This document shows positions 1 to 22,438 of a stretch of 28,313 nucleotides of DNA, piece after piece. Numbering within the stretch: the stretch's first letter is position 1; each line of letters begins with the position of its first letter. Where the stretch lies: IMG/VR virus record IMGVR_UViG_3300010370_000182, positions 1 to 28,313 of that record; one strand, written 5' to 3'. Under the pieces are notes generated by a model, which saw nothing but the letters and a program-made list of their open reading frames with translations, searched no databases and had not been told where the DNA came from. The DNA is from a virus. The position numbers and the translations under genes were made by a program.

Positions 1-1788
1 CGTGGTGGTCGTACTGTTCCTGAAGATATTCGTAAAGAAAAATGGGATGCAGTTCAAGCATCACGTGTTGAACATGCAAAAATATTTGGTGATAACTACG
101 TTGAGTTTGATAATTCAGAAGACTTACGTTCAGCGCCACCCGAAGTTGTTGATGCAAAAAATAAAGAAATGCAGGGCATCTTCAAAGACATACAAAAATT
201 TGTTGGCGCTGCACCTAAGAATGATCAGTCAAAGCAATGGATTGCAAACGAGTTAGGAAATAAAGATACTGCACCAGTTGTCAAAGATGCACGACCACAT
301 GCAGATGCTGGTCATCAAGAAGAAGGAAACAAACTAGGACTTGAATACTATGGATTTGGACGTTATGGTAAAGATGGTAAAGTAACACATCGTTCGGTAC
401 ATGGTAAACTGGTTGAAATTCAAAAGAAACAAAAAGAAACACCAGATTTGCCTGTAATGGGTTCTGGTTCAGCAAGCACCAAAGAATTTCAATTGAAGGG
501 CAAACAAAAAGAAAAACTAAAAGACATTCAGTCTAAGTCCAAACTTCCTAAAACAAAAAATGAAAGTATCAACGACAAGTTTGAAAACTTTATATCAGAA
601 GCAGTGACAGTTACAATTACTGGTGATACAGCAGAAGAAGTTTCTAAAACATTCCGTCTCCTTCGTACAGATGATGAAGAGATGACTGAGCAAGAAGAAG
701 TAAACACAATGTCGGATCCGGGTGCATACAATCTCCTTCGTTTGGGTATGCCACTTATCAAAGAAGACTTACGCAATTGGTTTGATCCTAAACATCCAGA
801 AGGTGGTTGGAAACGTATCAATAGCAAAGGTGAAGCAATTGGTCCATGTGCAAGAGAACCAGGTGAAGCAAAACCAAAATGCATGTCTAATGAAAAACGT
901 GCTTCATTGAGCAAAAAAGAACGTGCGTCTGCTGTTGCAACTAAACGCCGTCATGATCCAAATCCAGAACGTAAAGGTGAGCCAATCAACGTATCAAGTT
1001 TTGGTAAGGGCAAAATAAGCGAAGCTGCATATGAAGGTAACATTGGTATGATGGAAGTGATGAAGTTTCATCAGAAAGCAACACCAGATCAAAAGAAAAA
1101 ATTCAAAGAACATCTTGCAAATAAGAATCACAAAGAAGCATGGAAAATGATTCAACACGTTTCTGGTACAAAACTTATTGGTAAACAGTTTGAAGAAACT
1201 CAAACAAAGAAACAAAAGTTACTGTCTGATAGACACGGCAAACCAAGAACATTCTTGCTAAGAGCATCAGCAGCAAAAGAAGCACACGTAAATGGTGGCA
1301 TAGTTCACAAAGTAGGAAGTAAGTATGTTATTAAAATAAAAGAGGATATAAATGAAGATTTTTCACCAACTAATAATGCAATTGAAGCAGCTTATGGACA
1401 GAATAGTTCCACGCCGTCAGCAAAACAACTTGGAAAAGTCGGAACCAGTTCAAGAGAAAAAGACAAACCAAGACTTGACAAGCCCGTTGCCGAAGAAAGA
1501 AGAACAATCAGTCTCTCGTCCATCAAAGAGGGCTTCCAAAAGAAAATCGAAGAATCAATCGACAAAGGCATAGAGCCCGGCATTTCTATGGCAGCAGCTG
1601 GTGAATCACCTGCACGTGATATGGGTGAGAAGCTAAGTAAGAAGGGCAAAGCAACACAAGTTGTGCCAAAGAATATCAGTGAACTCACTGGTGATGAAAC
1701 GACAGCAAGCATTGGTGATCAAAAAGAAGATGAGTTGAAGAAAAAGGGCATATCACTTTTAACGTTTAAGAAGAGAAACTTCATATGA
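1..1788 (+). CDS. Modular virion-region protein, 5'-truncated, possible P-loop kinase C-terminus
   Basis: The frame is open from the first base, so the true start lies upstream; the ATG at 169 is internal. The first ~130 residues (PEDIRKEKWDAVQ, YYGFGRYGKDGKVTHRSVH) resemble the C-terminal part of kinase-like proteins of T4-like marine phages, from memory. At nt 574-606 is KFENFISEA, like the F-I-x-E-A cleavage end of T4 internal-protein leaders. A Cys/Lys/Arg-rich module at about nt 770-1000 (GGWKRINSKGE, GPCAREPGEAKPKC, KRRHDPNP) resembles DUF5872. The remainder is charged and low in hydrophobic residues. The stop overlaps the next ATG (ATGA). Likely a multi-module virion or head-associated protein; function of each module is unknown. 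Confidence 0.7.
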   Translation, partial: RGGRTVPEDIRKEKWDAVQASRVEHAKIFGDNYVEFDNSEDLRSAPPEVVDAKNKEMQGIFKDIQKFVGAAPKNDQSKQWIANELGNKDTAPVVKDARPHADAGHQEEGNKLGLEYYGFGRYGKDGKVTHRSVHGKLVEIQKKQKETPDLPVMGSGSASTKEFQLKGKQKEKLKDIQSKSKLPKTKNESINDKFENFISEAVTVTITGDTAEEVSKTFRLLRTDDEEMTEQEEVNTMSDPGAYNLLRLGMPLIKEDLRNWFDPKHPEGGWKRINSKGEAIGPCAREPGEAKPKCMSNEKRASLSKKERASAVATKRRHDPNPERKGEPINVSSFGKGKISEAAYEGNIGMMEVMKFHQKATPDQKKKFKEHLANKNHKEAWKMIQHVSGTKLIGKQFEETQTKKQKLLSDRHGKPRTFLLRASAAKEAHVNGGIVHKVGSKYVIKIKEDINEDFSPTNNAIEAAYGQNSSTPSAKQLGKVGTSSREKDKPRLDKPVAEERRTISLSSIKEGFQKKIEESIDKGIEPGISMAAAGESPARDMGEKLSKKGKATQVVPKNISELTGDETTASIGDQKEDELKKKGISLLTFKKRNFI

Positions 1789-2324
1789 AATCGTTTAACA
1801 AATTTTTAGATGAAGCAGGTCAATGTTGGTCTGGTTATAAACCAGTGCCAGGTAAAAAGCCATATACGCCCGGCTCATGTGTCAAAGAAGAAGTTGAAGA
1901 ACTAGATGAAAAAGGACCGGGTCTTTGGGCAAACATTCGTGCAAAGAAAGCACGAGGTGAACGCATGAGAAAACCCGGTGCAGAAGGCGCACCAACTGAT
2001 GCTCAAATCAAATCAATTAGAGCAAGTGAAGAAGTTGAACATCTTGATGAAGATGGTGCTTGGACACGTAAAGAAGGTCAATCTGAATCAGGTGGTTTGA
2101 ATAGAAAAGGTATTGAATCATATCGTCGTGAGAATCCTGGTTCAAAACTTTCAATGGCTGTTACAACAAAGCCATCTAAATTAGATCCAGATTCTAAAGC
2201 AGCAAAGCGCCGTAAGTCATTTTGCGCCAGAATGGGCGGCATGAAGAAAAGATTAACTTCAGCAAAGACTGCGAATGATCCAGATTCACGTATTAATAAA
2301 TCATTGAGAAAGTGGAACTGCTAA
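1785..2324 (+). CDS. Internal-head-protein-like modular protein with capsid-targeting-like N-terminus
   Basis: 179 aa, basic. The N-terminus MKSFNKFLDEA closely matches the form of the capsid-targeting leader of T4 internal proteins (MKTYQEFIAE-A, from memory), which gp21 protease cuts after I/L-x-E. Further LDE sites occur at residues 40-42 (EEVEELDE) and 87-89 (EEVEHLDE). Between them is a short CWSGYKPVPGKKPYTPGSC module. After residue 91 comes a DUF6321-like basic module (GAWTRKEGQ, KRRKSFCARMGGMKK, SRINKSLRKWNC). Its ATG overlaps the preceding stop and the following ATG directly abuts its own stop, so the three genes are translationally linked. Packaging and cleavage are inferred, not shown. 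Confidence 0.75.
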   Translation: MKSFNKFLDEAGQCWSGYKPVPGKKPYTPGSCVKEEVEELDEKGPGLWANIRAKKARGERMRKPGAEGAPTDAQIKSIRASEEVEHLDEDGAWTRKEGQSESGGLNRKGIESYRRENPGSKLSMAVTTKPSKLDPDSKAAKRRKSFCARMGGMKKRLTSAKTANDPDSRINKSLRKWNC

Positions 2325-3632
2325 ATGGCACAGTTTAGGACCGATCTAAACAAGATAGATTCAGGACAAGTATTCACTCGGTATGAAGTGAATATGTTGT
2401 CTGATCGTCTTACACCATCTAACTCATTGACAGATGCATTCGGTCGTTTACGTACTGCTCTACCATTTACACTTTTTGAGAGTTCACATAGATTTAATGA
2501 TAACGGTTTATGGGTAACATCAAACACAGCAAGTAATAGTTCACATACATTCGTAGAAAATCAAAGTACAATTGACATGACTGTTGGCACAACAGCAAAT
2601 GCAGAAGTCATTCGTGAGACAACTAAAGTGTTTTCATACCAACCAGGTAAATCATTATTGATCATGAATTCAGTTGCATTTAGTCAACCAAAAGCAAATG
2701 TTCGTCAAAGAGTCGGTTATTTTGGACAAAGCAACGGCATTTACTTAGAGAATGACGGTAATACAAATTATCTTGTGGTAAGAACAAACACTTCAAGTAC
2801 AGTAACAGAAACAAGAGTGGCACAATCAAATTGGAATGTTGATAAGTTTGATGGTACAGGTTACTCATCACAATTTGGTTATGAGCGCACTGCACTAGAT
2901 ATAGGCAAAGCAAATATTTTTTGGATTGATATTGAATGGCTAGGTGTTGGTGATGTTCGTTGCGGTTTTGTTGTTGACGGAAAAATGTTACCTGCTCATA
3001 CGTTTCATCATGAAAATAAAATTACCTTGCCTTACATGACAACGGCATCATTGCCACTAAGACTGGAGATAAAAAATACCGGTGTGACGGCAAGTAATTC
3101 AACACTGAGTCAGATTTGCTCTACTGTAATATCTGAAGGTGGTTATGAATTATATGGTACGCAACAGGCAGTAGGAACAACAATTACTGCGCCAGTTGAT
3201 TTACCAACAGCGGGAACATATTATCCAGTTGTTTCGATACGACTGAAACAAAATCGTTTAGATGCGATTGTTATTCTAACCGCACTATCAATTTTAGGTA
3301 TAACGAATAATGCATATTATAATTGGCAAGTAAGAGCAAATGCAAACACAGCTGGCGGCGGAACATGGGTGTCTGCTGGAGATAACTCTGCTGTAGAATA
3401 CAAACTTGACGGTGGATCAGTTACTGGTGGTAGAATATTAGCATCTGGATTTACGGGTGCAACCACTCAAAGTATATCACCGGTTGATATTCTCAAAGAA
3501 GCATTATTCAAGTTTCAATTAGAAAGAAATAGTTTTGCAAACACAGCATATGAACTATCATTAGTCGCTTCGGCAAGTACCAACGGTGCCGACATATATG
3601 GTTCTATGGACTGGGAAGAAATCACAAGATAA
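2325..3632 (+). CDS. Phage virion structural protein (beta-rich, adhesin- or decoration-like)
   Basis: 435 aa with the Ser/Thr/Asn/Gly-rich, beta-prone composition of a virion surface protein and no signal peptide or membrane segment. The early segment RLTPSNSLTDAFGRLRTALP followed by TLFESSHRF is the start pattern I associate with structural proteins shared by T4-like cyanophages and other marine phages. The C-terminal third (about 285-435) is rich in Ala/Gly/Thr and ends in DWEEITR. The ATG immediately follows the TAA of the previous gene with no room for its own conventional SD, so it is probably translated by coupling. Placement between modular LDE proteins supports late expression. The exact virion location cannot be told. 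Confidence 0.65.
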   Translation: MAQFRTDLNKIDSGQVFTRYEVNMLSDRLTPSNSLTDAFGRLRTALPFTLFESSHRFNDNGLWVTSNTASNSSHTFVENQSTIDMTVGTTANAEVIRETTKVFSYQPGKSLLIMNSVAFSQPKANVRQRVGYFGQSNGIYLENDGNTNYLVVRTNTSSTVTETRVAQSNWNVDKFDGTGYSSQFGYERTALDIGKANIFWIDIEWLGVGDVRCGFVVDGKMLPAHTFHHENKITLPYMTTASLPLRLEIKNTGVTASNSTLSQICSTVISEGGYELYGTQQAVGTTITAPVDLPTAGTYYPVVSIRLKQNRLDAIVILTALSILGITNNAYYNWQVRANANTAGGGTWVSAGDNSAVEYKLDGGSVTGGRILASGFTGATTQSISPVDILKEALFKFQLERNSFANTAYELSLVASASTNGADIYGSMDWEEITR

Positions 3633-4880: not shown

Positions 4881-6560
4881 ATGCCTGGCAAAATCAAAGT
4901 CAATTTCAAGATGCCGCCCGAAACGGCGGCTGAGAAATTATATCGCAAGCATCAAGAGTTACGTAAGAAATCTGGATTACCTGATCCAGAGCATTACAAA
5001 AAACTTGCTGCACAAAAGCAGAAAGAGATTGATGATCTAAGAAAAGAAGATGTTGAGATGCTTGATGAGATGCCAGAATCAAGTATGAAAACACGTGATG
5101 TTCATGCCCACCTAAAGAAGGCTGGTTGGGCATTGAAACGTACTGGCGGTGGTCACGATGTTTACGCACATCCAAAATCAAAAGAACACATCGCTGTTCC
5201 TCGTCATAAACAATTGAAAGCACCACTCATTCGTGGTATTCTCAAAGCATCAAGAGTTTCTGAAGAAGCCGAGATTGATGAACAATTACAACAGAAAGGA
5301 AAATTTGTGTCGGGTCCAGTCAAAAAACCATATAAATCTCCTACGATAGTAACACCGATAAGAGAAGCAAAAGATCCACGTGAGTATGATTACGAAGGCG
5401 ATATGGCAATGTCACAACTTCGTTCACTTGTTTTCAACGCTGAAGACATGATGGATTTGATGGAAGAAAATACGAATCTACCAGAGTGGGTGCAATCAAA
5501 GATTACACTTGCTGAAGATTATATTTCAACAGCAGCAAACTATCTGCGTGGTGAGTTGAATGAAGAAGTGAAAGATGAATATGCACGTAAAGTGGACAAA
5601 TACTTGAAAAAGAAACACGGTAAAGACAAACAACCACAGGGTGCAGACTTTGCAGCACAAAGACGTAAAGAAAGACTTGCAAAGAATGGACGTATGGATG
5701 AAGATACACTTGAAGAAGGTCGTCCTTCACAACGCCATCCATTAGAGGGTCATGATTATCACAAGAAATCTAATGAAGAATTGATTGGTATTGCTAAAGA
5801 TGCACACGCTGCCGCTGAAGCAATGAAGGGTCATAGTACCCGAGCAGAAAACAAATATCGTGACCAAGCAAATGATTCAGCAACAGTACGTTACTTCCGT
5901 CAAAAGAGTGGTATGCCTGACTGGTACAAGAAAAAGTATGGTCATGTCAAAGAAGAAGCGGAGATTCAAGAATCTGATGCAGCTTGGGCAGCTTCTCAGG
6001 AAAAGCGTAAAGAAAAAAAGTTGACACCTAATGATCAAGATAAACTTGGACAAGTCCGTGCTTTAATGGCTAAAGAAAAAGAAGCTAAAGCAAAGATGAA
6101 GAAAGAAGAAGTTGAACAGTTAGATGAGTTGAAAAAAGACACACTGAAATCATATCTTCTAAAAAAGACAAACAAGCCAGGCGTTCCTTCACAAAAAGAT
6201 GTAAGTGGTATGGCAAATGCGACTGTTCGTTTGATGGGCAAAAAGCCAACTTCAGAAGAAGTTGAATACTTAGATGAAGAAAACAAGCCAACTAATCCAG
6301 AACTTTGGTCTAAAGCAAAATCAATGGCTAAATCCAAGTTTGACGTATATCCATCAGCATATGCAAATGGCTGGGCAGCTAAATGGTACAAATCTAAAGG
6401 AGGTGGATGGAAGTCTGTTTCTGAGGAAACTGAGAAGCCAGAATCACGCAAAGCAAGAATCGTGAGAGACCTCGTGAAAGATAAAAAGAATGCACAAGAA
6501 GAGGCATCGGACAAGTTTCAAAAAGATCCCGAAATCTCAAGTGAAATTCAAAAGAACTAA
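4881..6560 (+). CDS. LDE-repeat modular protein with embedded HicA-like domain
   Basis: 559 aa, very charged. In order: Lys-rich helix (1-57); LDE at 61-63; HicA-like domain (69-127); IDE at 132-134; a helical module around SQLRSLVFNAEDMMDLMEE to DYISTAANYLRG (about 165-225); LNE 226-228; LEE 277-279; a His/Lys module ending MPDWYKKKYGH (about 281-355); IQE 362-364; LDE 414-416 followed by TLKSYLLKK; LDE 464-466; then a Trp/Tyr-rich PELWSKAK to AAKWYKSKGGGW module (473-510). Several modules recur in T4-like cyanophage proteins by memory. The repeated I/L-x-E sites at module borders suggest a polyprotein cut by a prohead protease. No signal peptide or membrane segment is visible. Confidence 0.72.
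   Translation: MPGKIKVNFKMPPETAAEKLYRKHQELRKKSGLPDPEHYKKLAAQKQKEIDDLRKEDVEMLDEMPESSMKTRDVHAHLKKAGWALKRTGGGHDVYAHPKSKEHIAVPRHKQLKAPLIRGILKASRVSEEAEIDEQLQQKGKFVSGPVKKPYKSPTIVTPIREAKDPREYDYEGDMAMSQLRSLVFNAEDMMDLMEENTNLPEWVQSKITLAEDYISTAANYLRGELNEEVKDEYARKVDKYLKKKHGKDKQPQGADFAAQRRKERLAKNGRMDEDTLEEGRPSQRHPLEGHDYHKKSNEELIGIAKDAHAAAEAMKGHSTRAENKYRDQANDSATVRYFRQKSGMPDWYKKKYGHVKEEAEIQESDAAWAASQEKRKEKKLTPNDQDKLGQVRALMAKEKEAKAKMKKEEVEQLDELKKDTLKSYLLKKTNKPGVPSQKDVSGMANATVRLMGKKPTSEEVEYLDEENKPTNPELWSKAKSMAKSKFDVYPSAYANGWAAKWYKSKGGGWKSVSEETEKPESRKARIVRDLVKDKKNAQEEASDKFQKDPEISSEIQKN
5085..5261 (+). other. HicA-like (YcfA-type mRNA interferase) domain inside the 4881-6560 protein
   Basis: Residues 69-127 of the host protein read as a compact HicA fold. 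MKTRDVHAHLKKAGW is the first helix, LKRTGGGHDVYAHP the strand pair with the conserved Gly-x-His (His92 being the likely catalytic residue), HIAVPRHKQLKAPLIRGIL the second strand and helix. The length (~59 aa) equals a free HicA toxin. It is flanked by LDE (61-63) and IDE (132-134), so cleavage after the two Glu residues would free a 71-residue piece. No HicB-like antitoxin is visible next to it. Recognition is by family pattern; activity is unknown. Confidence 0.7.
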
Positions 6561-18400: not shown

Positions 18401-18422
18401 TTGTTACAATTCCGTTGCAATT
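18401..18422 (+). promoter_or_regulatory. Pho-box-like direct repeat upstream of pstS
   Basis: Two abutting 11-base units, TTGTTACAATT and CCGTTGCAATT, share GTTxCAATT. The 11-base period and the TGTTACA/CGTTGCA cores resemble the PhoB box (TGTCATA and TGTCACA cores every 11 bases). The site ends 34 bases before the pstS ATG, leaving room for a -10 around 18429-18440 (TTTTAG or TAGTCT, poor matches) as in PhoB-activated promoters. It suggests use of the host phosphate-starvation regulator. Confidence 0.5.
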
Positions 18423-18456
18423 GAAATGTTTTAGTAGTCTAACCATAGGAGATAAT

Positions 18457-19482
18457 ATGAAGCAGTTTTTAGCATCTATTCTATTAGCAGTATCTTCGGT
18501 CGTATCAGCAGCAGAACTCACTGGCGCTGGTGCGACCTTTCCATTTCCAATCTATGCAAAGTGGGCTGAAGCATACAAAGCACAAACTGGCATTGGTCTA
18601 AATTATCAATCAATTGGTTCTGGTGGTGGCATCAAACAAATCAAAGCAAAAACAGTAGACTTTGGTGCAAGTGATATGCCACTGAAAAAAGAAGAATTGG
18701 ACAAAGAAGGTCTTGTTCAATTTCCAGCAATCATTGGTGGTGTCGTGCCAGTTTTCAATCTTGACGGTGTAGCACCAGGTCAATTGAAGTTGACACCAGA
18801 AGTTATTGCAAACATTCATATGGGTAAAATCACAAAATGGAACGACAAAGCAATTACTGATTTGAATCCTGGTGTTAATCTTCCAGCATTAGCAATCACT
18901 GTAATTCATCGTGCAGATGGTTCGGGCACTACATTTATCTGGACAAATTTCTTGGGTAAAGCAAACGCAGAGTTTGCAAAAACTGTCGGTGAAGGCACAG
19001 CAGTCAAATGGCCTGTTGGTGTAGGTGGTAAAGGCAATGAGGGCGTTGCAGCACAAGTGCAGAGAATCAAAGGCGCATTTGGATATGTTGAGTATGCATT
19101 TGCAAAGAGAAACAAAATTGCATTTGCACAATTGAAGAATCGTGATGGTGTTTTTGTATTACCTGATGATTCTACATTCAAAGCAGCAGCAGCAAATGCT
19201 GACTGGAACAATGCACCAGGCATGTATTTGTTACTCACATGGCAGACAGGCAAAGATGCTTGGCCAGCAACTGGTGCAAGTTTTATCCTGATGCACAAAC
19301 AACAAGCAGATGCACTAACAGGTCGTGCAATTCTCAAATTCTTTGATTGGTCATATAAGAATGGTGGTCAAATGTCAACAGAATTGGAATATGTTCACAT
19401 GCCAGCCGATGTAATTAAATTAGTTCAGGAAAATTGGAAGAAAGATTTCCGTGGTCCTGATAATACAACAATTTGGAAATAA
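18457..19482 (+). CDS. pstS: Phosphate-binding periplasmic protein PstS
   Basis: 341 aa from ATG 18457 with SD AGGAG; the longer in-frame start at 18415 overlaps the Pho-box-like site and lacks an SD. A Sec signal (MKQFLASILLAVSSVVSA) is followed by hallmark PstS phosphate-site motifs: GAGATFPFPIYAKW, YQSIGSGGGIKQI, DFGASDMPL and RADGSGTTFIWTNFLGK. It should capture phosphate in the periplasm and hand it to the host PstCAB transporter, which is not encoded here. It is the first gene of a two-gene cassette with an outer-membrane porin. Codon use looks like the neighbouring phage genes, so it is not a recent arrival. Confidence 0.93.
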   Translation: MKQFLASILLAVSSVVSAAELTGAGATFPFPIYAKWAEAYKAQTGIGLNYQSIGSGGGIKQIKAKTVDFGASDMPLKKEELDKEGLVQFPAIIGGVVPVFNLDGVAPGQLKLTPEVIANIHMGKITKWNDKAITDLNPGVNLPALAITVIHRADGSGTTFIWTNFLGKANAEFAKTVGEGTAVKWPVGVGGKGNEGVAAQVQRIKGAFGYVEYAFAKRNKIAFAQLKNRDGVFVLPDDSTFKAAAANADWNNAPGMYLLLTWQTGKDAWPATGASFILMHKQQADALTGRAILKFFDWSYKNGGQMSTELEYVHMPADVIKLVQENWKKDFRGPDNTTIWK

Positions 19483-19491
19483 GGATAAATC

Positions 19492-20898
19492 ATGAAATTA
19501 TTCAAAAAACTTTCTATCGTAGTTGCACTAGCAGCAGTAATTCCAGCATATGCTGATGAGTATAAAGACACACTGAATCTTCTGAGAGAGAAAAATATTA
19601 TTACTCAGCAAGAATACGAAACTAAACTCAAAGCATATGAAGAGAAAGAAGAAAACAAAAAGTTTGCAGAGCAAAGAATTGATAAAGATGTTAGCGATTC
19701 AGTCAAATATAGACAAGCAAGAGCAAATGATGGTTCAGTCATGGAAAACGGAATTGGACTCAAATCCAAAGACGGAAATAATACCATACAGCTTACGGGT
19801 CGTTTACATATGGACTATCGTCATTACACACCAGATTATGGCGTAAGTCAAACCACGGATGCGTATCAGAACACCGCTGAAGCAAGACGAGCAAGATTTG
19901 GAGTAAGAGGACAATTTGCTAAAGACTTCAAATATCAATTACTTGCCAACTTTGGTGCTAGTGACGGATTTAGTTCAACATCAAGTACCGCAGATGAGAT
20001 GTGGGTCAACTACGCAGCCAATCCTGAAATGCAGTTTCAATTTGGTCTGTTCAAAATGCCATTCAGTTTGGAACAAATGACTAGTTCTAACAACCTTGAT
20101 TTTATGGAGCGTAGTCTTGTGGGTCAGAACGACAGTGAATTAATTCCAGCTAAAGAAACTGGTTTTATGTTACATGGTATTCCAAAACCCGGCTTGACTT
20201 ATGCGATTGCTGCAAGTAGAGGTAAAAGCAATAAAAGTGCCGAGTTTGATGGATTTGATTACATTGGTCGTGTGACTACAAACATTGCTGAACTCACAGG
20301 CAGCAAAGCATACACAGCACATTTGGGTGCAGCATATAGCACTGGTGAAATCAAGAGTGGTGTAATACCTGTTAGTGGCAGAACTGAATCACGTATGCAG
20401 AGTGGTTGGTTCACTGGTTCAGCATTGAGTGGTGCAACAACAAGAACACGCCAGGGTCTTGAAGCCGCTTTTGCTTATGATGGACTCAAGCTACAGGGTG
20501 AGTATTTCAATTTCAAATATGAACCTGAAACAGGTAGCAATCAAGAAATCAAAGGCTATTATGTACAAGCTGTTTACAATTTGACAGGCGAATCACATTC
20601 ATATAAAGATGGCGTATTCGGTTGGATCAAACCAAATAATCCTGTAGACAAAAATGGTCGTGGTGCATGGCAAGTAAGTGTTCGTGCAAGTGAGTTTGAT
20701 GCAAGTGACATTAGTGTTGCTACAGGTAAAGCAAATCGTGCCACAGCAATGACTTATGGTATTACTTGGTTCTGTACTGATAATCTACGTTTTATGCTAA
20801 ATTATGTTGATACCAAATTTGATTCTTTGGTTGGATCATCAGGTAGTCGTGTGAATGGTGATAAAGCAATCATGTTCAGAAGTCAGCTAAGTTTCTAA
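19492..20898 (+). CDS. Phosphate-selective porin (OprO/OprP family)
   Basis: 468 aa. Signal MKLFKKLSIVVALAAVIPAYA, then a short helical linker (LNLLREKNIITQQEYETKL) usual in this family, then a beta barrel beginning at NTIQLTGRLHMDYRHY with alternating hydrophobic strands and ending LMLNY-type strands and a terminal Phe (SQLSF), the signal for outer-membrane insertion. Motifs ARRARFGVRGQFAKDFKYQL and FQFGLFKMPFSLEQMTSS are characteristic of Porin_O_P. It would let phosphate or other anions cross the outer membrane. It follows pstS by 9 bases. A full-length, intact porin on a phage genome is unusual. Confidence 0.88.
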   Translation: MKLFKKLSIVVALAAVIPAYADEYKDTLNLLREKNIITQQEYETKLKAYEEKEENKKFAEQRIDKDVSDSVKYRQARANDGSVMENGIGLKSKDGNNTIQLTGRLHMDYRHYTPDYGVSQTTDAYQNTAEARRARFGVRGQFAKDFKYQLLANFGASDGFSSTSSTADEMWVNYAANPEMQFQFGLFKMPFSLEQMTSSNNLDFMERSLVGQNDSELIPAKETGFMLHGIPKPGLTYAIAASRGKSNKSAEFDGFDYIGRVTTNIAELTGSKAYTAHLGAAYSTGEIKSGVIPVSGRTESRMQSGWFTGSALSGATTRTRQGLEAAFAYDGLKLQGEYFNFKYEPETGSNQEIKGYYVQAVYNLTGESHSYKDGVFGWIKPNNPVDKNGRGAWQVSVRASEFDASDISVATGKANRATAMTYGITWFCTDNLRFMLNYVDTKFDSLVGSSGSRVNGDKAIMFRSQLSF

Positions 20899-20965: not shown

Positions 20966-21421
20966 ATGAAACATTTATTAGCACTTGTCATGGTAATGTT
21001 GTTATCTTTTTCTGCTTTTGCTCAAAATGAACGTTTTGAACTGAATTTCAAAGATAACAAAGTAATTCACAATGATTCCGATTGGGAATTTTTGATGCAT
21101 GAATACACATATGATTTTTTAGTCAGCAAAAAAATTCATATGCTGGACAACGATAATTTTATAGTTCATTCATATATTGAATTTGACACGCCGTACACAT
21201 ACTCTGCATTCAATGAACCCACACACAAGATATATACAATGGGTGTTATGAGTTGCTCAAGAAAAGCATTCATGTTGTTACGCCAAGTATATGTAAAAGA
21301 AGACAGCAATATACAAGTAATTCAACCAATTCAACCAAACGAATATGTCTCTGAAGTTGAAACGCCGGGAACGGCAAGAAATCAGATGTATTTGAAAGTA
21401 TGTTCAGGAGAAATCGTATGA
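20966..21421 (+). CDS. Secreted protein, surface-adhesin-E-like pattern
   Basis: 151 aa. A Sec signal (MKHLLALVMVMLLSFSAFA, cut before QNERF) and a strong SD (GGGAGG) are clear. The mature part is beta-prone with Cys in GVMSCSRKAFMLL and in YLKVCSGE. The order (aspartate/Trp-containing middle, a CxxxR-type strand, PGTARNQMYLKVC near the end) is reminiscent of surface-adhesin protein E-like domains, but the match is only by eye. It starts after the porin terminator and overlaps the nuclease gene by four bases. Periplasmic or surface location is likely; function unknown. Confidence 0.55.
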   Translation: MKHLLALVMVMLLSFSAFAQNERFELNFKDNKVIHNDSDWEFLMHEYTYDFLVSKKIHMLDNDNFIVHSYIEFDTPYTYSAFNEPTHKIYTMGVMSCSRKAFMLLRQVYVKEDSNIQVIQPIQPNEYVSEVETPGTARNQMYLKVCSGEIV

Positions 21422-21861
21422 AAAAATTTTATGCTATAGTAGGTTTTTTATTCCTTTGTTTATTTTTACCAGTATCAGCAAAAACTCCACAGGGTGTAAT
21501 GTATGATGCACAAATTTTGCGTGTAAGTGATGGTGACACTATTGTTATCGCAGCACCATTTCTACCTGCACCATTGAAGCCAGAACTTGCAGTTCGTATC
21601 TACGGTGTAGATACACCAGAAAAAGGTTTTCGTGCTAAATGTCCACAAGAAGATGAGCGTGGTAAATTAGCATCAAAGTTTACAACGAATCTGGTTGCAA
21701 AATCTGTCAAACGTCAAGTTGTACTTTATGACTGGGATAAGTTTGGTGGTCGTGTATTAGGAGATATTATTTTAGATAACCAAAGTCTTCGTGGTTTGCT
21801 CATTGCAAATGGATTTGCACGTGAATACTTTGGTGAAGCAAAACAATCATGGTGTAACTAA
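21418..21861 (+). CDS. Secreted staphylococcal-nuclease-like (thermonuclease) protein
   Basis: 147 aa from ATG 21418, which overlaps the previous stop (ATGA) and has AGGAG upstream; an earlier in-frame ATG (21400) lacks an SD and would spoil the signal. Signal MKKFYAIVGFLFLCLFLPVSA, then an SNase OB-fold: RVSDGDTIVI, VRIYGVDTPEKG (Arg60, Asp65, Thr66, Glu68) and KFGGRVLGDI (Arg112), matching the catalytic Arg/Glu/Arg set and calcium acids. It should be a periplasmic nuclease cutting DNA or RNA. It might degrade incoming competitor DNA or scavenge nucleotides and phosphate. Confidence 0.85.
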   Translation: MKKFYAIVGFLFLCLFLPVSAKTPQGVMYDAQILRVSDGDTIVIAAPFLPAPLKPELAVRIYGVDTPEKGFRAKCPQEDERGKLASKFTTNLVAKSVKRQVVLYDWDKFGGRVLGDIILDNQSLRGLLIANGFAREYFGEAKQSWCN

Positions 21862-21863
21862 TC

Positions 21864-22040
21864 ATGCACATCAATCACACTTGCTCCGCGTGTGGTTCAG
21901 AATTTGGTATATCATATGATGAAATGCACACCGAAACTGATCCAAACTTTTGTCCATTTTGTGGTGAATATTTGATCCTTGATGAAGATGATTTCAATGA
22001 TGAAGACCTCCATGATGATGAAGATGAAGAGCCTCTATGA
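21864..22040 (+). CDS. Small zinc-ribbon protein with acidic tail
   Basis: 58 aa. Two knuckles, CSAC (7-10) and CPFC (30-33), are spaced as in a zinc ribbon, followed by an Asp/Glu-rich tail (DEDDFNDEDLHDDEDEE). The ATG is two bases after the nuclease stop and its stop overlaps the next ATG (ATGA at 22037), so it is embedded in the operon. Such acidic ribbons may bind basic protein surfaces or mimic DNA; no family is recognised. It is short and could be overlooked, but the Cys pattern and tight packing support it. Confidence 0.68.
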   Translation: MHINHTCSACGSEFGISYDEMHTETDPNFCPFCGEYLILDEDDFNDEDLHDDEDEEPL

Positions 22041-22438
22041 CATGGTACTATGATGGTGTGCCATTTGATGACGATGGCACATCTTTTGGATTTGTGTATC
22101 TAATAGAAAATCTAATCACAGGTAAAAAATACATTGGACGCAAATACTTTAGTAAAGCTGGTTACCGTCAAGTCAACGGCAAAAGAAAAAAAATCAGAAA
22201 AGCTAGTGACTGGGAAACCTATTACGGTTCCAACGAAACACTTAAAAGAGAAGTAACGGAGTTGGGACCACATAATTTCAGAAGAACTATATTGAAATTG
22301 TGTAAAACTAAATCGGAGTGTTCATATTGGGAAACAAAAGAGATATTTGTTAGAGATGCCCTTTTGTCTGAAGATTATTATAATTCGTGGGTAACATGTA
22401 AAATTACAAAAGCACACTTGATTGGAAAAATAAAATGA
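22037..22438 (+). CDS. GIY-YIG-like nuclease
   Basis: 133 aa. FGFVYLIENLITGKKYIGRK (17-36) is a GIY-YIG core, with FVY and YIG as the paired strand tripeptides and Arg35 after them. SDWETYYGSNETLKREV follows, and the Glu in SYWETKEIFVRDALL could be the catalytic acid. Proteins of this form occur in T4-like phages as free-standing nucleases, possibly homing or host-DNA-degrading. No DNA-binding NUMOD-type repeat is seen. It overlaps its two neighbours by four bases. Target and role are unknown. Confidence 0.75.
   Translation: MTWYYDGVPFDDDGTSFGFVYLIENLITGKKYIGRKYFSKAGYRQVNGKRKKIRKASDWETYYGSNETLKREVTELGPHNFRRTILKLCKTKSECSYWETKEIFVRDALLSEDYYNSWVTCKITKAHLIGKIK

Follow-up and report, generated by a model that had tools for sequence, protein, structure and literature searches.

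The toxin of the HicAB system is an mRNA-cleaving enzyme that is neutralised by HicB, and free HicA cuts mRNA. In phage T4, the internal head proteins IPI, IPII, IPIII and Alt are single cargos with removable end peptides; they have a capsid-targeting peptide, are processed by the prohead protease gp21 and are ejected with the DNA. One account (PMC9026906) states that gp21 cuts after L/I-x-E, that the T4 internal proteins are small and basic and that many are ejected with the DNA. The head proteins DarA/Hdf of P1 and the ejection proteins of SPN3US/phiKZ are, in the sections available of PMC12810830 and PMC9026906, retained and ejected with the DNA, some being processed by a prohead protease. 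Here we analysed a metagenomic viral contig of 28,313 nucleotides (the window, meaning this whole stretch), which encodes P0001, a 559-residue modular protein with a HicA cassette (4881..6560, plus strand), defined by its open reading frame, module analysis and AlphaFold2. The evidence leans slightly towards P0001 being a gp21-processed internal-head polyprotein whose HicA piece is freed, kept with the DNA and brought into the host as a takeover factor.

A first-pass annotation of the window had proposed that residues 69-127 of P0001 (5085-5261) form a HicA (YcfA) domain with its Gly-x-His, and both proposals were borne out. Pfam PF07927 (HicA_toxin) matched residues 72-123 (5094..5249, plus strand) with a score of 38.9 bits, above its cut-off of 27 (E=9.5e-10; in the record, E=5.6e-13), and PHROG 353 'toxin' matched residues 67-125 (E=6.7e-13). 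The fold prediction that the annotation had suggested as a check agreed with this. An AlphaFold2 model of the HicA piece, built on an alignment of 31 sequences, had the HicA order of helix-strand-strand-strand-helix, with a core pLDDT of about 86-88 and disordered flanks; the model and its PDB matches correspond to a dsRBD-like fold of a three-stranded sheet and two helices. The top five PDB matches were all HicA-family structures (6g26 with two chains, 1whz, 4p78 and 4c26; best E 1.5e-3, target-normalised TM 0.84-0.86, identity 24-27%), and 4c26, 6g26 and 1whz were also matched in a profile search with the HicA segment. In the alignment with 4c26, Gly90 and His92 of P0001 (5148..5156, plus strand) correspond to Gly22 and His24 of B. 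pseudomallei HicA, and mutating either of these abolished toxicity (PMC3969222). The Gly and His are invariant across 31 distinct sequences, and dN/dS between the window cassette and its relatives was mostly 0.03-0.29. The sequence is far from those of solved HicAs, as would be expected if the HicA-like fold were degenerate or due to chance and lacked a function. Such a fold is scarcely credible given the low dN/dS, the invariant toxicity residues and the presence of HicA at 42 loci, although these loci are mutually related and thus are not independent observations. We conclude that P0001 contains a genuine HicA domain, which is under purifying selection and retains both residues required for toxicity, the Gly and the His.

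The first-pass annotation saw no HicB, and none was found in the window or its relatives: PF15919 was present in 0 of 28 relative records, PF05534 in 0 of 23 records including the window, and Pfam scans of 20 window ORFs contained no HicB family. The adjacent HicB of a HicAB type II toxin-antitoxin system was thus not detected beside P0001. We considered that HicA might act late in the producing cell, freed or within the precursor before packaging, cutting host mRNA or countering defence, with packaging being incidental. The P0001 gene lies in a structural operon that is presumably expressed late, and cutting mRNA is what free HicA does. However, a free RNase with no antitoxin would threaten phage mRNA as well, and the protease-type sites on both sides suggest that activity is held back until prohead cleavage, which leaves late action very improbable.

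The cassette is bordered by two acidic linkers on the plus strand, EDVEMLDE (5046..5069) upstream and EEAEIDE (5262..5282) downstream. The LDE at residues 61-63 and the IDE at 132-134 had been named as flanking sites, exactly as we found them; the predicted gp21 cuts after Glu63 and Glu134 would free residues 64-134 (5070..5282, plus strand), a piece of 71 residues with a mass of 7.9 kDa and a pI of 9.8. The linkers EEAEIQE (5952..5972), EEVEQLDE (6105..6128) and EEVEYLDE (6255..6278), all on the plus strand, have predicted cuts after Glu364, Glu416 and Glu466, respectively. L/I-x-E sites thus occur at domain borders, as in T4-type internal head proteins processed by gp21. A full-length AlphaFold2 model of low overall confidence (mean pLDDT 60) showed folded blocks with low-confidence linkers between them, and in this model 8 of the 11 [LI]xE sites were in residues with pLDDT<50 (binomial p=0.011). 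Because shuffling predicts 5.7 plain [LI]xE sites in P0001 against the 11 found (p=0.02), two such sites alone are weak evidence. Plain [LI]xE density also hardly discriminates modular proteins from others (13.4 versus 11.5 per 1000 aa), so the argument rests on the longer, EEVExLDE-type motif, [ED][VIAT]E.{0,1}[LI][DEN]E. P0001 contains four copies of it versus 0.009 expected, with at most 2 in 20,000 shuffles, and its density is 2.37 per 1000 aa in modular proteins versus 0.061 in other ORFs, a 39-fold difference. Among 31 distinct cassette sequences, 29 have [LI]xE directly before the first Met of the HicA cassette, x being D, E, T or Q. The downstream site is looser, with [LI]xE in 22/31 and [LIVM]xE in 27/31 sequences, and this counts against the internal-head reading.

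The nucleotide sequence of the linkers allows a different explanation. The 12-base word GAAGAAGTTGAA has seven copies in the window, all within linkers (expected 0.00), so that the linkers may owe part of their conservation to recombination at the DNA level, another point against our reading; the Val codon of the window linkers is GTT in 8/8 cases. Together with extensive module shuffling, these features would fit linkers that are recombination joints and flexible spacers instead of protease sites, with modules being swapped via short stretches of DNA common to the linkers, in a protein that stays whole and has HicA working within it. Nevertheless, in the relative L119 the same linker peptide is encoded with different Val codons, GTT, GTA and GTC, so the protein sequence is kept too. 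Furthermore, the middle residue upstream of the cassette varies while L/I and E are retained, which is the gp21 rule, and the motif recurs in gp21-adjacent core genes outside the shuffled modular proteins. We regard this second rival as rather improbable; the linkers may be both protein cut sites and DNA exchange points at once.

Of 28 relative records, 13 contain gp21 itself (Peptidase_S77, PF03420), and among the 13 records above 85 kb in length 11 do so; no gp21 is seen within the window, a metagenomic fragment of 28 kb. The gp23 N-termini of three relatives fit the gp21 rule at inferred cut positions (LSE/T, LQE/T and LTE/A). Genes directly upstream of gp21 carried the EEVExLDE-type motif at 7 of 13 gp21 loci. 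Overall, the motif was found in 7/30 gp21-adjacent core genes compared with 15/1450 other non-modular ORFs (Fisher p=9e-8; shuffling predicts 0.1), and several of those 15 resemble modular proteins overlooked by the module profiles. Judged from sequence, the motif flanking HicA very probably represents the cleavage site for gp21 in these phages, since it is shared with core genes next to gp21.

The P0001 operon encodes further modular proteins on the same strand. The ORF at 1..1788, whose frame is open to base 1, encodes the C-terminal portion of a polyprotein that the contig end truncates. Its whole relatives have about 900 residues with a cytidylyltransferase and a Zeta-like kinase in the N-terminal part; one of them (L136:2282-5020) is a 913-aa polyprotein that starts MKFRDFLRE/, a capsid-targeting-like N-terminus, and contains cytidylyltransferase and Zeta-toxin-like P-loop kinase domains. 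In the window, the truncated ORF is followed by a 179-aa modular protein (1785..2324) with the T4-like capsid-targeting N-terminus MKSFNKFLDE/A, two EEVExLDE linkers and a C-terminal DUF6321. A virion structural protein (2325..3632; phrog_1645, head and packaging, E=5.6e-134) lies between the modular genes, and P0002 (3655..4878), a second modular protein of 407 aa, has the same linkers as P0001. The N-terminal loop of P0002, DANKNGKADAHD / DANKNGKADAHDF, resembles an EF-hand or dockerin calcium loop.

The N-terminus of the 179-aa protein compares with MKTYQEFIAE/A of T4 ipII and ipIII. P0001 has no capsid-targeting N-terminus, which counts against the internal-head reading, and for this reason we describe it as working like T4-type internal head proteins and do not file it as a member; such a peptide is present in the 179-aa sister and in the HicA protein of L108. 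At L122:5001-5468, an N-terminal HicA is followed by an internal capsid-targeting-like stretch, LLSFSQFIAE/AEYQ.

Virion membership of relatives was taken from published tables and record annotation. The published virion list of S-CREM2 (PMC10665884) includes gp137 (4 peptides, 4.1% coverage) and gp160 (7 peptides, 13.1% coverage); we found DUF6321 in gp137 and WFDP and NGWA-like modules in gp160. For S-SCSM1, the record annotates ORF29 as 'virion protein', and the paper behind this record used mass spectrometry to identify virion proteins (PMC9602691). The relatives detected by mass spectrometry have DUF6321, WFDP or NGWA modules in common, not HicA. DUF6321, moreover, is not specific to T4-type heads, since among phage isolates it is carried by hundreds of cyanophages as well as by small podophages that infect Prochlorococcus and Pelagibacter. 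Both findings count against the internal-head reading. The first-pass idea of a virion-packaged cargo freed during head maturation therefore stands in part: the HicA domain is there, the gp21-type motif is found beside gp21 as well, and proteins with the same modules are reported in purified virions, but those proteins are without HicA. Separately, S-CREM2 gp160 (L180:34343-35236) contains GATGFTGAAAPEGPVAGYDP, and this resembles the N-arm (GADGFTGAAAPGGPNAGFDP) of the major capsid protein of S-CREM2 itself.

On the internal-head reading, P0001 would be a prohead-core polyprotein of a T4-like phage, with small folded modules on acidic linkers that serve as sites for gp21 (L/I-x-E, here usually EEVExLDE). 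We infer that the precursor is packaged, entering the prohead together with the other modular proteins of its operon, of which some bear the T4-like capsid-targeting peptide, and that gp21 cuts after Glu63 and Glu134 to give an intact, basic 71-residue HicA domain with no antitoxin. The freed piece would most likely stay with the packaged DNA, enter the new host alongside it by ejection and act there as a takeover factor, possibly as an RNase cutting mRNA or by binding RNA.

The main rival accepts the cleavage and ends there: P0001 would be a scaffold-like core protein cut by gp21, whose HicA piece leaves the head with no host role and would be of use in assembly, perhaps by binding RNA or DNA within the core. 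The linker motif is indeed common to core genes beside gp21, and most other modules match no enzyme family. In addition, PMC9026906 reports that many T4 core-protein fragments leave the head after cleavage, those of gp22/gp67 being mostly lost, so the HicA piece could be lost too, which weighs against its retention. On the other hand, invariant Gly and His residues needed for HicA toxicity are unexpected in a throw-away spacer, and the operon's first polyprotein carries the enzyme domains cytidylyltransferase and Zeta-like kinase in relatives. Moreover, gp154 of S-CREM2, a cytidylyltransferase with the capsid-targeting-like N-terminus MKNFSSFLTE/A, is reported in virions. Taken with this evidence, a role confined to the core appears unlikely.

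To describe the arrangement of modules we derived 19 profiles from the four modular proteins of the window, because gapped alignments blurred the borders that were mapped from BLAST end points. The profiles revealed that modules are extensively reshuffled among relatives. HicA was found in 37 proteins with 20 module arrangements, its position being initial, central or close to the end. The L108 protein runs from a capsid-targeting-like peptide (MKSFTQFINE) through EVEILDE, HicA and EEVELDE to DUF6321, and in L119 HicA is inside a 1431-aa protein with nine EEVExLDE linkers. The L119 protein (L119:4824-9116) also has an intein-like insertion that splits its NGWA module (KFDVYP...SAYANGWAAKWY; Pfam Intein_splicing E=5.9e-4, under the family cut-off). 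It is possible, and we propose it tentatively, that these proteins consist of exchangeable gp21-bordered cassettes that are cut apart at maturation and injected with the DNA, one of them being an antitoxin-free HicA RNase that is inactive until cleavage.

HicA-bearing members were found only in metagenomic viral contigs; among phage isolates the HicA segment had no close match and only distant YcfA-type proteins. Elsewhere in the window, 18415-20898 encodes a PstS-like phosphate-binding protein (phrog_5385) and, after it, a phosphate-selective porin O/P (PF07396, E=1.7e-48); for a phage, this combination looks unusual. Searches of bacterial genomes, which detect close relatives only, found none of the HicA module or of this porin. 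A Staphylococcal-nuclease-like domain and a SegE-type GIY-YIG endonuclease are encoded at 21400-21861 and 22037-22438. A cyanobacterial host was weighed since the phage resembles Kyanoviridae, and was not adopted; a search of 23 records, many of which are fragments, did not detect psbA (PF00124).

In a search of open-licence papers we came across neither a HicA-bearing head protein nor such a prohead-protease polyprotein. If the internal-head reading is true, the T4 internal proteins would no longer comprise single cargos alone but also a polyprotein whose cassettes are interchangeable and released by a protease, and a toxin-antitoxin toxin with no antidote would join the likely injected phage proteins. 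The EEVExLDE-type motif could offer a route to predicting internal-head cargos of uncultured T4-like phages by sequence alone, and the abundant 'hypothetical' virion proteins of aquatic T4-like phages would gain a possible role. P0001 resembles T4 IPI, IPII, IPIII and Alt in belonging to a T4-like group with gp21 in larger relatives, in its L/I-x-E sites and in the small basic piece predicted to be freed, and the likeness extends to the capsid-targeting-like N-termini of its sister proteins. Unlike the T4 proteins, it strings several cassettes in one precursor, these are reshuffled between phages, and one of them is HicA. The domain shares its fold, family profile and Gly-x-His with HicA of HicAB (PF07927), whereas it is embedded between cleavage-type sites instead of being a free small protein and has no HicB that we could find. 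The P1 DarA/Hdf and SPN3US/phiKZ proteins differ in that the sections available to us describe neither reshuffled cassettes nor a HicA cargo. A further comparison is with the Kyanoviridae T4-GC119-type hypothetical proteins (S-BM3, Syn9 gp114), S-CREM2 gp137/gp160 and S-SCSM1 ORF29; WFDP, NGWA-like and DUF6321 modules are common to them and the modular proteins described here, but they are without HicA and have few or no EEVExLDE linkers.
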